Shown: positions 47,116 through 49,655 of the stretch, one piece after another | Layout of the letters: each line of letters begins with the position of its first letter | Position numbering within the stretch: position 1 is the stretch's first letter | Assembly: GCA_009377575.1 (NCBI GenBank) | Contig: WHTU01000013.1 | Coordinates: 1 to 64,000, forward strand | Direction of reading: 5' to 3' | Source: Nitrososphaeraceae archaeon | Lineage (GTDB): Archaea > Thermoproteota > Nitrososphaeria > Nitrososphaerales > Nitrososphaeraceae | DNA length: 64,000 bases | Translations under genes and position numbers: made by a program | Notes under the pieces: model-generated | Database searches by the model: none | Told to the model about the DNA's origin: nothing | The model's input: only the letters and a program-made list of their open reading frames with translations

Positions 47116-47718
47116 CTACTTATCGAAACTAAGGGACTCTTGTGCTTGAGCACCCTTGGTTATTACCAAGAGATCTATCCCGTCGCCACTTGCAGAATCT
47201 CTCTGAATTGAAGACCTGATGGCCTTTAACGCAAGCTCCTTTGATTGTTCAGCCGTAAGGCTTGATTTATAGTCCGAGTCAAGAACTCCTAATGCCATTT
47301 CTGCTCCAGTCCCCACAGCAGCGTAATCATCTGGAAGAACAGAACCTATAGGATCTAATGTATAGATTTGTGATTTTGTGTTTACTCCCCCAACAATAAC
47401 TTGTGTAAGAAGCGGGAAAAATCTGCGTTCAAACATTATGACGGACATCAGCTTGGCTATCGAATTAGGTGCAACATTTCGTCTTGTTTCAAGCTTTCGA
47501 ATTTTTGCCAATGCCTCAACTTGCCTGACCAATACTTGCATATCCGCTATCATACCCGCGCATGCAGCGCCAACACTCTCAGTGACAGAAAATATTTTTC
47601 TTGTATGCTTATTAATAACGAAATTCCCATACGAGACACGTTTTTCAGCAGCTAGAATGACACCGTCAGAGAACGTTATCCCAACTGCCGTCGCCCCTGG
47701 CATAAATTGAAAAGCCAT
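47116..47718 (-). CDS. psmB: Proteasome beta subunit, catalytically inactive (Thr1 replaced by Ala)
   Basis: A 20S proteasome beta subunit of 200 residues. The mature N-terminus should read G-TTTVGI, with Thr1 as nucleophile. Here it is PGATAVGITFSDGVILAAEK, so the Thr1 position is Ala9 and the nucleophile is missing, while Asp17-like (SDG) and Lys33-like (AAEKR) positions remain. This matches the inactive beta1-type subunit known from Sulfolobales. Other motifs are normal: IFSVTESVGAACAGMIADMQ and AVGTGAEMALGVL. An active beta partner must be elsewhere in the genome. It lies 75 bases downstream of the GHKL ATPase gene. Confidence 0.93.
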   Translation of the reverse strand: MAFQFMPGATAVGITFSDGVILAAEKRVSYGNFVINKHTRKIFSVTESVGAACAGMIADMQVLVRQVEALAKIRKLETRRNVAPNSIAKLMSVIMFERRFFPLLTQVIVGGVNTKSQIYTLDPIGSVLPDDYAAVGTGAEMALGVLDSDYKSSLTAEQSKELALKAIRSSIQRDSASGDGIDLLVITKGAQAQESLSFDK

Positions 47719-47793
47719 TTATTTCGTCATTATATCCGAGTGTAGTTAGATTTAGTCCTTTCTATCGGGGGGTCTTTTCCCGGTATCTAAGTT

Positions 47794-49527
47794 TCATAAC
47801 TTCTTAGGAACCGAGTGGTCGTGTATTCTGATCGCTTCGGCAATTAGCCTGTTTTGTAATTCTAATGCCTCTTTTGCTTCTGGATGCTTGGCTTCAGCGA
47901 GTGCCTCAGCGACAATCCTTATTATATGTCGTAATAGAAATTCATCTCCTCTTCTGGCTTCTGACCGGTACGCTGAGTTAGCCTTGTTCACAAAGACGAC
48001 GTTCTCGCTTCTAAAGCTGTATCTCGAATCAGTTTCATCCTCGTATGGAATGACCTTATATCCAACCTTCTTTAGAGCGAAAGTTTTCCTGATAATCGGT
48101 TTTCTGATCCTCTTCATCATTGATATTCCAGGTGGATGTTGAAATTTATCCTCAATTTCAGCCGATGCCTCGAGTAACGAATCATAGTTTACGCCAAACT
48201 TAGAAGGCATATCTGTCTCTGTTTTTACATCATTTATTCCCTTGCTACCAACTTCAACAGACATAGTCTTCTCGTTTCGATCTGATACCAATTCAGAGCC
48301 GTCGTCCTGGCCCTCCAATTCCATGTCTTGTCGATTTTCATTAGGATACTGACGCTGAACAGTCGAATACAAATTTTGGCTTGATGACGGAAATTCACTA
48401 CCTGCAGAAATTCTCCCGCCAGCTTCAACTTCCAAATTATCGGCAGCTCTGACCTCCTCTTTGACATCGACTAACTGAAATCCTTCAATTTCCTCTTCAC
48501 CTTCTAGATTCTCAAATAGCGCCTGACCTAATGCTTTATCAATCTCCTTGTATATTTTCGATTCTTCTCTAGTAATTAAGACATCCTCGTATTCGGACAA
48601 GCTAGGAATTACTGTGTCCTTGATAAACTGCTTCATAGTACTGTGGAAAGCATGATATTCATCATCTTCGATCAACGCAGACTTGTCTGCAAAACGGGAT
48701 GTGAGGGTATCACACCTAACAAGTCCAGTTATTCTGCTCAATCTTGAATCAAGCTCAAACGAAGTACGCGTAACTATGTGGTTTCGTATCATGATCCCAA
48801 TACCCCTTTCCTCCTCTGATAGAGGCCTTTTAGCAATGACAATTTCACCTACAATACGGGGAGAATCAACGTTGACCGGAATTCTGTGCCCTTGAATATC
48901 TGGGGGGGTGATGACTTGTGATCCATCTAGATCCCATTCTTTAAAACTACTGGAGCTCTTCCAATATACCTCAAACAGGGGGTAGCGAAGAATAGCCAAC
49001 TTTCTAATTTCCTTGATGAGTTTGATTGGATCAATTTTCACCTTGGAATTGCCTAAAGTTAATTCTGTGCCGTTGCGCACTAACAGAGGTTCGTCAAGCT
49101 CTTTCAATCTCGAGTTTCCCTTGTACAGATCGTCAAGAGATGAAGAATCAATCAGAATTGATTTTCTAAATCCATCCCGCTTTGTTCGCATTTTCATGCT
49201 ATCAAACGACGTCAAAAAAGATAAACGACCAGTGCCATACCTGCCCGTCCTCGTTCTCTTCAATCTGGGAGAGATAAAATCATTTTTTTTGTGAGGTGAA
49301 CCTAGAACAAGAAATTTTTCCATCCCATCTTCATCCATGCCGGCATCATCCTCGATCACGATGGCACCGTCATTGACCATAGTTATCAGTACTTTGGTTG
49401 CATCCTCGTCAAATGCGTTTTCGATCATTTCTTTGACAATATCATTTGGAGAGACCCAAGTCTTAGTTGCAAATTCTTTGAAGAAAGATGGATGCACCTT
49501 AAGTTCCACTGTCATTTCTTGTATCAT
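47794..49527 (-). CDS. GHKL-fold ATPase with long disordered linker, unknown function
   Basis: A 577-residue protein with a Hsp90/MutL/MORC-type ATPase domain. The N box is IVKEMIENAFDEDATKV (catalytic Glu33, Mg-binding Asn37), the G1 motif IEDDAGMDEDGM (Asp61, Gly63) and the G2 loop TGRYGTGRLSFL (residues 94-105). A transducer-like beta domain follows to about residue 330. Residues 340-460 are acidic and low-complexity. The C-terminal part has a basic KRIRKPIIRKTFALKK and the helical ending HIIRIVAEALAEAKHPEAKE. It lies upstream of psmB in the same direction. A chaperone- or MORC-like DNA/protein-remodelling role is only a guess. Confidence 0.85.
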   Translation of the reverse strand: MIQEMTVELKVHPSFFKEFATKTWVSPNDIVKEMIENAFDEDATKVLITMVNDGAIVIEDDAGMDEDGMEKFLVLGSPHKKNDFISPRLKRTRTGRYGTGRLSFLTSFDSMKMRTKRDGFRKSILIDSSSLDDLYKGNSRLKELDEPLLVRNGTELTLGNSKVKIDPIKLIKEIRKLAILRYPLFEVYWKSSSSFKEWDLDGSQVITPPDIQGHRIPVNVDSPRIVGEIVIAKRPLSEEERGIGIMIRNHIVTRTSFELDSRLSRITGLVRCDTLTSRFADKSALIEDDEYHAFHSTMKQFIKDTVIPSLSEYEDVLITREESKIYKEIDKALGQALFENLEGEEEIEGFQLVDVKEEVRAADNLEVEAGGRISAGSEFPSSSQNLYSTVQRQYPNENRQDMELEGQDDGSELVSDRNEKTMSVEVGSKGINDVKTETDMPSKFGVNYDSLLEASAEIEDKFQHPPGISMMKRIRKPIIRKTFALKKVGYKVIPYEDETDSRYSFRSENVVFVNKANSAYRSEARRGDEFLLRHIIRIVAEALAEAKHPEAKEALELQNRLIAEAIRIHDHSVPKKL

Positions 49528-49655
49528 GTAGTGGTTCTCCCCTTTATCTATTGCGTAGAATCGTCGATACGCTAACCACGGTAACAGACTTCACTACAGA
49601 ATTGAAGACCCAGCGTTAATGATTGCAATGTCAATCGAGCTATTAATAATTCAGG

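Follow-up and report, generated by a model that had tools for sequence, protein, structure and literature searches.

An apparently lineage-restricted GHKL ATPase encoded beside a predicted inactive proteasome beta subunit in Nitrososphaeraceae

The helpers known for archaeal proteasomes are AAA+ rings and small chaperones, and one group of proteasome activators carries the C-terminal motif HbYX. MutL proteins consist of a GHKL ATPase and an S5 domain followed by a long disordered linker and a small C-terminal domain, whose endonuclease motif, DQHA, is absent from some members. MORC proteins share the GHKL and S5 layout, and a passage of Iyer 2008 (PMC2292703) gives their S5 motif as GhXhhpXXRhl; in its parts on related families the same source ascribes nuclease, TIR or HxH extensions to paraMORC3-5 and argues that GHKL-S5 proteins, MutL and MORC among them, act as clamps. 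Hsp90 is described in one section of PMC3708813 as missing from nearly all archaea.

The gene studied here lies next to psmB in the window, by which we mean the whole 64,000-nucleotide stretch of DNA that was analysed, and its product shares traits with several of these systems. An earlier note on this DNA had called it an unfamiliar ATPase, and indeed no named family except the general HATPase_c_3 reaches its cut-off in Pfam or NCBIfam. The same note had set it apart from Hsp90, MutL and TopoVI-B, and the protein falls short of the models for all three. The NCBIfam scan of the window protein returned only matches below cut-off (to restriction-enzyme, sacsin-type and MutL models) and none to the HtpG/Hsp90 or Top6B models. 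The genome's Top6B is a separate gene (L083, 406 bits). Apart from the ATPase, HATPase_c_3 matches nothing else in this genome, so that no MutL was found there.

Among proteins of solved structure, MutL comes nearest in sequence (profile E 1.2e-6), and the order of a GHKL and S5 N-terminal module, a long disordered linker and a small C-terminal domain is that of MutL/Mlh. The ATPase differs from them in its contracted G1 box, in the absence of DQHA (0/49 distinct sequences) and in a C-terminal domain that matches no solved MutL sequence; on the MutL model TIGR00585 it scores 19.2 bits against a cut-off of 180. The GHKL and S5 layout is likewise that of MORC and paraMORC1-5, and the stretch GIGIMIRNHIV resembles the MORC S5 motif, but the arginine of that motif is replaced by an invariant histidine (H250, in 33/33 aligned members; placed by eye), and by the tests possible the protein would not be a strict MORC. 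With paraMORC1-5 the comparison is by description only, and the Pfam-scanned window neighbours are not restriction-modification genes; kinship with paraMORC1, whose extension is described less closely, is possible. One distant archaeal relative gives a weak match to Morc6_S5 (0.0014, below cut-off).

Over the ATPase part, the best similarity to a curated family is to the BbrUII/HgiDII restriction enzymes (NF050001; 4.2e-15), but the match covers residues 30-169 only and scores 55 bits against a cut-off of 550. In PADLOC the matches are to a diadenylate cyclase (0.0071) and to a pair of models for type II restriction enzymes, the better at 5.2e-10. With Hsp90/HtpG and sacsin-type proteins the ATPase shares the Bergerat fold and a weak sacsin-type match (1.1e-5, under cut-off), but the family has no profile match to the middle and C-terminal parts of HtpG (E 0.11, in an unrelated register, for the profile of the whole family against six HtpG sequences, which lacked their first ~80-130 residues). 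In the structural alignment by VIA-align, the Hsp90 N-domain stands first among the matches listed (Z 13.6, rmsd 3.5, 173 aligned), followed by PMS2 (Z 12.9, rmsd 3.7, 148) and MORC4 (Z 12.7, rmsd 6.8, 235), and this ranking cannot choose the nearest kin because the three tie within 1 Z; nor does it speak against families that it does not list. Among PHROGs, residues 3-160 match phrog_6203, a viral family of unnamed function (4.2e-17), but only the ATPase part aligns with its 644-position profile and no phage record matched the protein; a second viral family matched weakly. AAA+ and PbaB-type proteasome activators resemble the ATPase only in the proposed partner; the fold differs, and the C-terminal HbYX is absent (0/49 distinct sequences).

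GHKL clamps as such are known. What appears new is that a type confined to one lineage combines a shortened G1 box with a C-terminal domain outside known families; this type is absent from the Pfam, NCBIfam, PADLOC and PHROGs libraries. Among the matches listed, the literature held nothing on this ATPase family or on a GHKL gene adjoining psmB.

Domain organisation and conservation of the ATPase

The gene is intact, its frame being open throughout in the ORF listing of the window, and it is more than a chance frame: 32 aligned relatives share 52-93% identity with the window protein. Translation probably starts at codon 5 (Table 1) rather than at the upstream ATG at 49527, because the majority of relatives start at the matching codon and because the TATA-like box would presumably leave too little room before the upstream ATG. 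Of 59 ATPase upstream regions, 40 have a similar box no more than 70 nt from the start, and such a box was found in 0/66 psmB upstream regions.

Table 1. Features of the ATPase-psmB locus, in window coordinates
Feature	Position	Strand	Remark
GHKL ATPase gene	47794..49527	-	open frame, 577 codons
Probable start ATG (codon 5), 573 aa	49515	-	start shared by most relatives
TATA-like box of ATPase gene, CAATAGATAAAGGG	49540..49553	-	putative function
N box E33..EN37AFDEDAT44	49396..49431	-	kept in 49/49 distinct full-length sequences
Contracted G1 box E59-D60-D61-A62-G63-M64	49336..49353	-	gap in MutL alignment
G2 box RTGRYGTGR	49225..49251	-	kept in 49/49 distinct full-length sequences
K282, conserved Lys late in S5-like domain	48682..48684	-	ADK in 49/49
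Acidic disordered linker, aa 346-469	48121..48492	-	pLDDT <50 over most
Basic C-terminal domain, aa 470-577	47797..48120	-	no known family matched
psmB promoter-like element, GAAAGGACTAAATCTAAC	47745..47762	-	conserved before psmB
psmB, predicted inactive proteasome beta subunit	47116..47718	-	Pfam Proteasome 5.2e-50
Ala codon at presumed mature residue 1 of psmB, replacing catalytic Thr	47692..47694	-	

As judged from its sequence, the protein is a GHKL (Bergerat-fold) ATPase with an S5-like domain, of the MutL/MORC sort. Pfam HATPase_c_3 (PF13589) covers residues 26-125 (3.4e-12; 47 bits against a cut-off of 25), with no other Pfam family at E ≤1 in the window protein, and Foldseek matches the ATPase to HtpG, GyrB, MLH1 and MutL at E 5e-9 to 6e-8. 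In an alignment of 33 members, two conserved blocks flank a variable linker, and the N-terminal one (1-345) comprises the ATPase and the S5-like part. The full-length AlphaFold model is poor (mean pLDDT 53.5 from 33 input sequences), we think because these sequences are too alike, and its usable region runs from about residue 20 to 210, minus the lid around 80-100. Despite the poor model there, the S5-like part is backed by homology, since a profile comparison aligns residues 4-339 with distant archaeal GHKL proteins (E 5.9e-15).

The earlier note had described an intact ATPase with N, G1 and G2 boxes. The N and G2 boxes are as claimed, but an intact G1 was wrong: the canonical DxGxG is absent, the box being one residue short in the alignment to MutL, and it reads ED[DN]AGM in 48 of the 49 distinct full-length sequences and EDDSGM in the remaining one. 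The contracted G1 is a variant within the GHKL superfamily, an assignment that draws on profile and fold. From the roles of their counterparts in MutL and Hsp90, we take E33 of the N box to be the general base and N37 the Mg-binding asparagine; K282 may contact the gamma-phosphate.

The linker is both acidic and disordered, as had been proposed, with a net charge of -16 in the window protein (-18 to -1 in 47 distinct sequences). The segment beyond it had been read as a basic helical tail. Basic it is (pI 9.9 in the window protein, family median 9.4), but the helical part of the description gives way to a small domain of ~100 residues, predicted as four strands and three helices (mean pLDDT 72, pTM 0.49). 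Against Pfam, none of 39 members does better than E 0.004 over this part, and the matches disagree; among solved sequences no match was obtained (best E 0.11), Foldseek gave none at E 0.001 (best 1.2), and structural alignment of the model reached Z ≤4.7 (selecase, PIH1 domains) with no confident fold. A metallopeptidase fold, suggested by some weak structural rows, was rejected on the absence of HExxH (0/49), and an Hsp90 C-terminal domain on the profile comparison to the six HtpG sequences, which gave E 0.3 in an unrelated register. The C-terminal ends of two distant relatives (L078 and L080) recall by eye the 'INPxHP' region of HtpG. Profile comparison did not join the C-terminal domain of the window family to its counterparts in such distant relatives (E 0.2-0.8), a weak test with profiles of one to three sequences, though one that found the domain of the full-length member G039 (3.9e-29); a layout common to the window family and its distant relatives at the C-terminus is therefore an impression. 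Having no relatives in the libraries searched, the C-terminal domain is a clear target for structure determination.

Selection on the three parts was compared in six close pairs, four of them computable for both the N-terminal block and the C-terminal domain. In these four pairs dN/dS is 0.171, 0.051, 0.055 and 0.093 for the N-terminal block, 0.064, 0.012, 0.026 and 0.060 for the C-terminal domain, and 0.072, 0.066, 0.062 and 0.084 for psmB, so that the C-terminal domain lies below psmB in 4/4, values that come from only ~100 codons and with dS up to 1.24 in one pair. The linker gives 0.341, 0.350, 0.361 and 0.585 in four pairs and 0.27-0.59 over all six. Over all members, conservation does not peak in the C-terminal segment: the mean frequency of the commonest residue is 0.81 over residues 1-120, 0.74 over 121-340 and 0.74 over 456-577, the last span including some linker.

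Distribution of the family and linkage to psmB

A family-profile search over 250 genomes of the order matched the ATPase in 66 of the 70 sampled Nitrososphaeraceae genomes, nearly always once; the four without a match among the genomes listed, apparently in order of kinship, are only 65-87% complete, and three of the 66 matched by contig-edge fragments (G017, G176 and G224). The genome G182 has two copies on different contigs, which may reflect contamination. Outside the family Nitrososphaeraceae the same search found one full-length member (G039, 43% identity) and, in nine genomes, weak matches to the ATPase part only. A single-sequence search gave weak matches in G043 and G057, as well as to second GHKL genes in G007 and G015. 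Among 398 genomes sampled from the phylum, one further weak match appeared (G445), and the C-terminal domain was found only in the sample's 7 family members. A contig scan of genomes gave 39 ATPase loci, while searches of phages, plasmids and viral contigs confirmed no relative. The ATPase family is apparently a lineage-restricted, undescribed clamp-type protein of soil ammonia-oxidising archaea.

The linkage set comprises 67 family loci (66 genomes, G182 counted twice); at one of them, in G179, the contig stops 306 bases downstream. In all 66 loci with psmB on the contig, psmB follows the ATPase gene, and this holds in 12/12 genera; in 65 of the 66 it lies on the same strand within 449 bases. 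The remaining one is G204, where psmB stands 773 bases away on the same strand of the same contig (L064) because an in-frame TGA cuts the ATPase frame. With L064 left out for its TGA, the gaps from ATPase stop to psmB start in the relatives' loci are 40-445 bases. Around the pair, gene order is shuffled: with neighbours in relatives clustered from frames of at least 70 aa, the commonest upstream neighbour occurs in 3/11 genera and the commonest downstream in 5/12.

For a baseline we followed hand-picked pairs of the window through 11 other genera, each represented by a single genome, the genes being named by eye except OLA1. Adjacency was kept in 11/11 for sucC-sucD, in 5/11 for sucD and a methyltransferase-like gene (G007 being cut by a contig end), in 1/5 testable cases for OLA1-DHAD and in 2/7 loci for OLA1 and a small zinc-ribbon gene, a close OLA1 being present in only 7/11 of the baseline genomes. 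On this small, hand-picked baseline, the ATPase-psmB pair is kept as completely as sucC-sucD.

The earlier note had named two outcomes as telling against it, a clear assignment to a known repair or Hsp90 family and a want of conserved linkage to psmB; neither came about. Within Nitrososphaeraceae the linkage is conserved at every testable locus. Across Thaumarchaeota at large, where the note had proposed to check it, conservation of the linkage is not supported: in the order's other families the ATPase is absent or only distantly represented, and the single full-length relative outside the family, in G039, is away from psmB, which is on another contig. The neighbours of the ATPase gene in G039 are genes for a class I tRNA synthetase on one side and for 259 aa on the other, with a phosphoesterase gene beyond.

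By its model psmB is a beta subunit (TIGR03634, 219.5 bits, slightly below the cut-off of 224), predicted to be catalytically dead for want of Thr1. Residue 1 is Ala in all 49 distinct long sequences and the GAT motif is present in all 66 loci; in the same 49 sequences K33 is kept, and residue 17 is acidic throughout, with E in 46 and D in the other 3. A T1A beta was also found in 20/20 tested genomes from the order's other families (L102-L121), and since all of these have it, the dead beta is older than the ATPase's place beside it. Directly upstream of the T1A psmB in 9 of these 20 genomes, from 8 other families, lies rtcA, the RNA 3'-phosphate cyclase gene (called by motif, with two of the nine confirmed by Pfam); in Nitrososphaeraceae the ATPase gene occupies its place. 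We know of no direct interaction between rtcA and psmB products, and because the case of rtcA makes clear that a gene may long remain beside psmB with no known contact, the adjacency of ATPase and psmB is not proof of contact either.

The earlier note had the ATPase reading into psmB after 75 bases. The gap is right, psmB starting 75 bases past the ATPase stop; read-through is not needed, and the two genes can do without a common transcript, because psmB has a promoter-like element of its own. Its consensus, GAAA(C/G)GACTAAATCT(A/G)AC, lies within 70 nt of the psmB start, exactly in 48 of the 66 loci and with at most 2 mismatches in 63, the other three (G035, G013 and G020) being at 3-5. In the 59 upstream regions of the ATPase gene, no match has fewer than 6 mismatches, the best ones ranging over 6-9. 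In the window the element is the sole match at ≤3 mismatches (shuffled sequences gave a mean of 0.08, with at least one match in 7/100), and in the source genome it occurs once at ≤1 mismatch, before psmB. Among 15 genomes, 14 have a match at ≤2 mismatches, the exception being G013, and in each of the 14 no match elsewhere surpasses the one before psmB. The six extra matches in these 15 genomes are all at 2 mismatches; a proteasome regulon marked by the element was rejected, since they are no commoner than the 8 of a reversed control. The element thus looks like a promoter of psmB and not like a signal common to proteasome genes. By eye, a similar element precedes psmB in L102, L103 and L105, from two families without the ATPase, and it is probably older than the ATPase gene.

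Elsewhere (L074/L076; G000, contig 358, 23071-24260) there is a gene for another beta subunit (KRMTTIVGI), and directly after it one for a divergent alpha-like subunit. The pair is possibly a second 20S proteasome, and a similar pair occurs in 12/15 other family genomes tested. A link between the ATPase and this pair was rejected, because three genomes with the ATPase (G009, G010 and G014) yielded no such pair.

Proposed function and alternatives

The domain order, the conserved ATPase residues, the constrained C-terminal domain and the conserved adjacency are observed, as described above; ATP hydrolysis, a dimeric clamp, its partner and its role are what we infer. Our leading reading, to which we give a probability of about 0.4, is an ATP-gated dimeric clamp tied to the heteromeric 20S proteasome with the T1A beta subunit. 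ATP would close the two N-terminal domains into a dimer, as in the GHKL-S5 clamps of MutL, MORC and Hsp90, with the acidic flexible linkers as the arms of the clamp. The small basic C-terminal domain would hold the partner and perhaps provide a second dimer contact. This partner would be the 20S proteasome with its dead beta, the best single guess because of gene order, and the clamp would either assist ring assembly, by positioning the dead subunit or keeping it in place, or remodel a protein at the barrel. If this is true, a new kind of player would join the proteasome, and its tie to the dead beta would hint at the purpose of that subunit.

Gene order is all the evidence for the proteasome link and favours proteostasis, whereas kinship favours DNA handling. 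Several observations weigh against the proteasome: psmB has its own promoter-like element, and a similar one stands before psmB in families without the ATPase; psmB adjoins rtcA in other families; the full-length relative in G039 does not adjoin psmB; HbYX is missing; the closest solved sequences belong to the DNA-repair protein MutL; the C-terminal segment is not the best conserved part family-wide; a dead beta does not in general need such an ATPase, because other families keep one without it; and the contracted G1 leaves ATP binding as a prediction. The main rival, close behind in probability, is a housekeeping chromosome factor, a MORC/MutL-like clamp whose work on DNA would be looping, compaction or surveillance, its adjacency to psmB reflecting a common expression level and not contact. 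Beside the kinship with MutL, such a clamp would agree with the similarity to BbrUII/HgiDII and to the type II restriction models, with the weak Morc6_S5 match in a distant relative, with the basic C-terminal domain and with a genome in which no MutL was found; it fits poorly with the absence of DQHA, with Pfam-scanned window neighbours that include no restriction-modification or helicase gene, with the lack of matches in phages or plasmids and with an adjacency as complete as that of sucC-sucD.

Were the ATPase instead a general chaperone that substitutes for Hsp90 in archaea, the first place of the Hsp90 N-domain in VIA-align would fit, but PMS2 and MORC4 tie with it, neither the HtpG profiles (middle and C-terminal parts only) nor the HtpG/Hsp90 model in NCBIfam matched, and the family is lineage-restricted; we consider this improbable. 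There is a similarly slim chance that the contracted G1 ended ATP turnover and left a degenerate, non-hydrolysing scaffold in which mainly the C-terminal domain matters. A G1 one residue short throughout the family and a C-terminal domain with the lowest dN/dS in the four computable pairs would suit a scaffold, but the N box, the G2 box and K282 are kept in 49/49 sequences, which is unexpected under relaxed selection. Returning to the clamp on the dead-beta proteasome, its boldest form would make the ATPase the first non-AAA+ ATPase dedicated to the proteasome, a MutL/Hsp90-type clamp from an ancestor of soil ammonia-oxidisers that assembles or gates the dead-beta 20S through a new C-terminal domain; in this full form we hold it to be unlikely.

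Bergerat-fold genes and novobiocin

The ATPase adds one more Bergerat-fold protein to archaea that have no DNA gyrase and yet are inhibited by novobiocin. In a passage of PMC11897584 the target of the drug is called unknown, with topoisomerase VI regarded as plausible and histidine kinases as possible. The ATPase would be a further candidate target in N. viennensis and Nitrosocosmicus. It would not explain the sensitivity of Nitrosopumilus maritimus if f9 is, as we presume, the family of that species, the profile search of 250 genomes of the order having found no full-length relative in f9.

Other GHKL genes were also seen. In G246, from another family of the order, three GHKL ATPase matches (frames of 746-808 aa) lie within ~10 kb of contig 1 (2673983-2684392). 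Another GHKL ATPase, of 503-513 aa, adjoins the same long thioredoxin-like gene, named by eye, in both L078 and L081 of family f8. In G049 a GHKL ATPase gene of the L080 type is split into frames of 325 and 134 aa (L079, 5161-6590).
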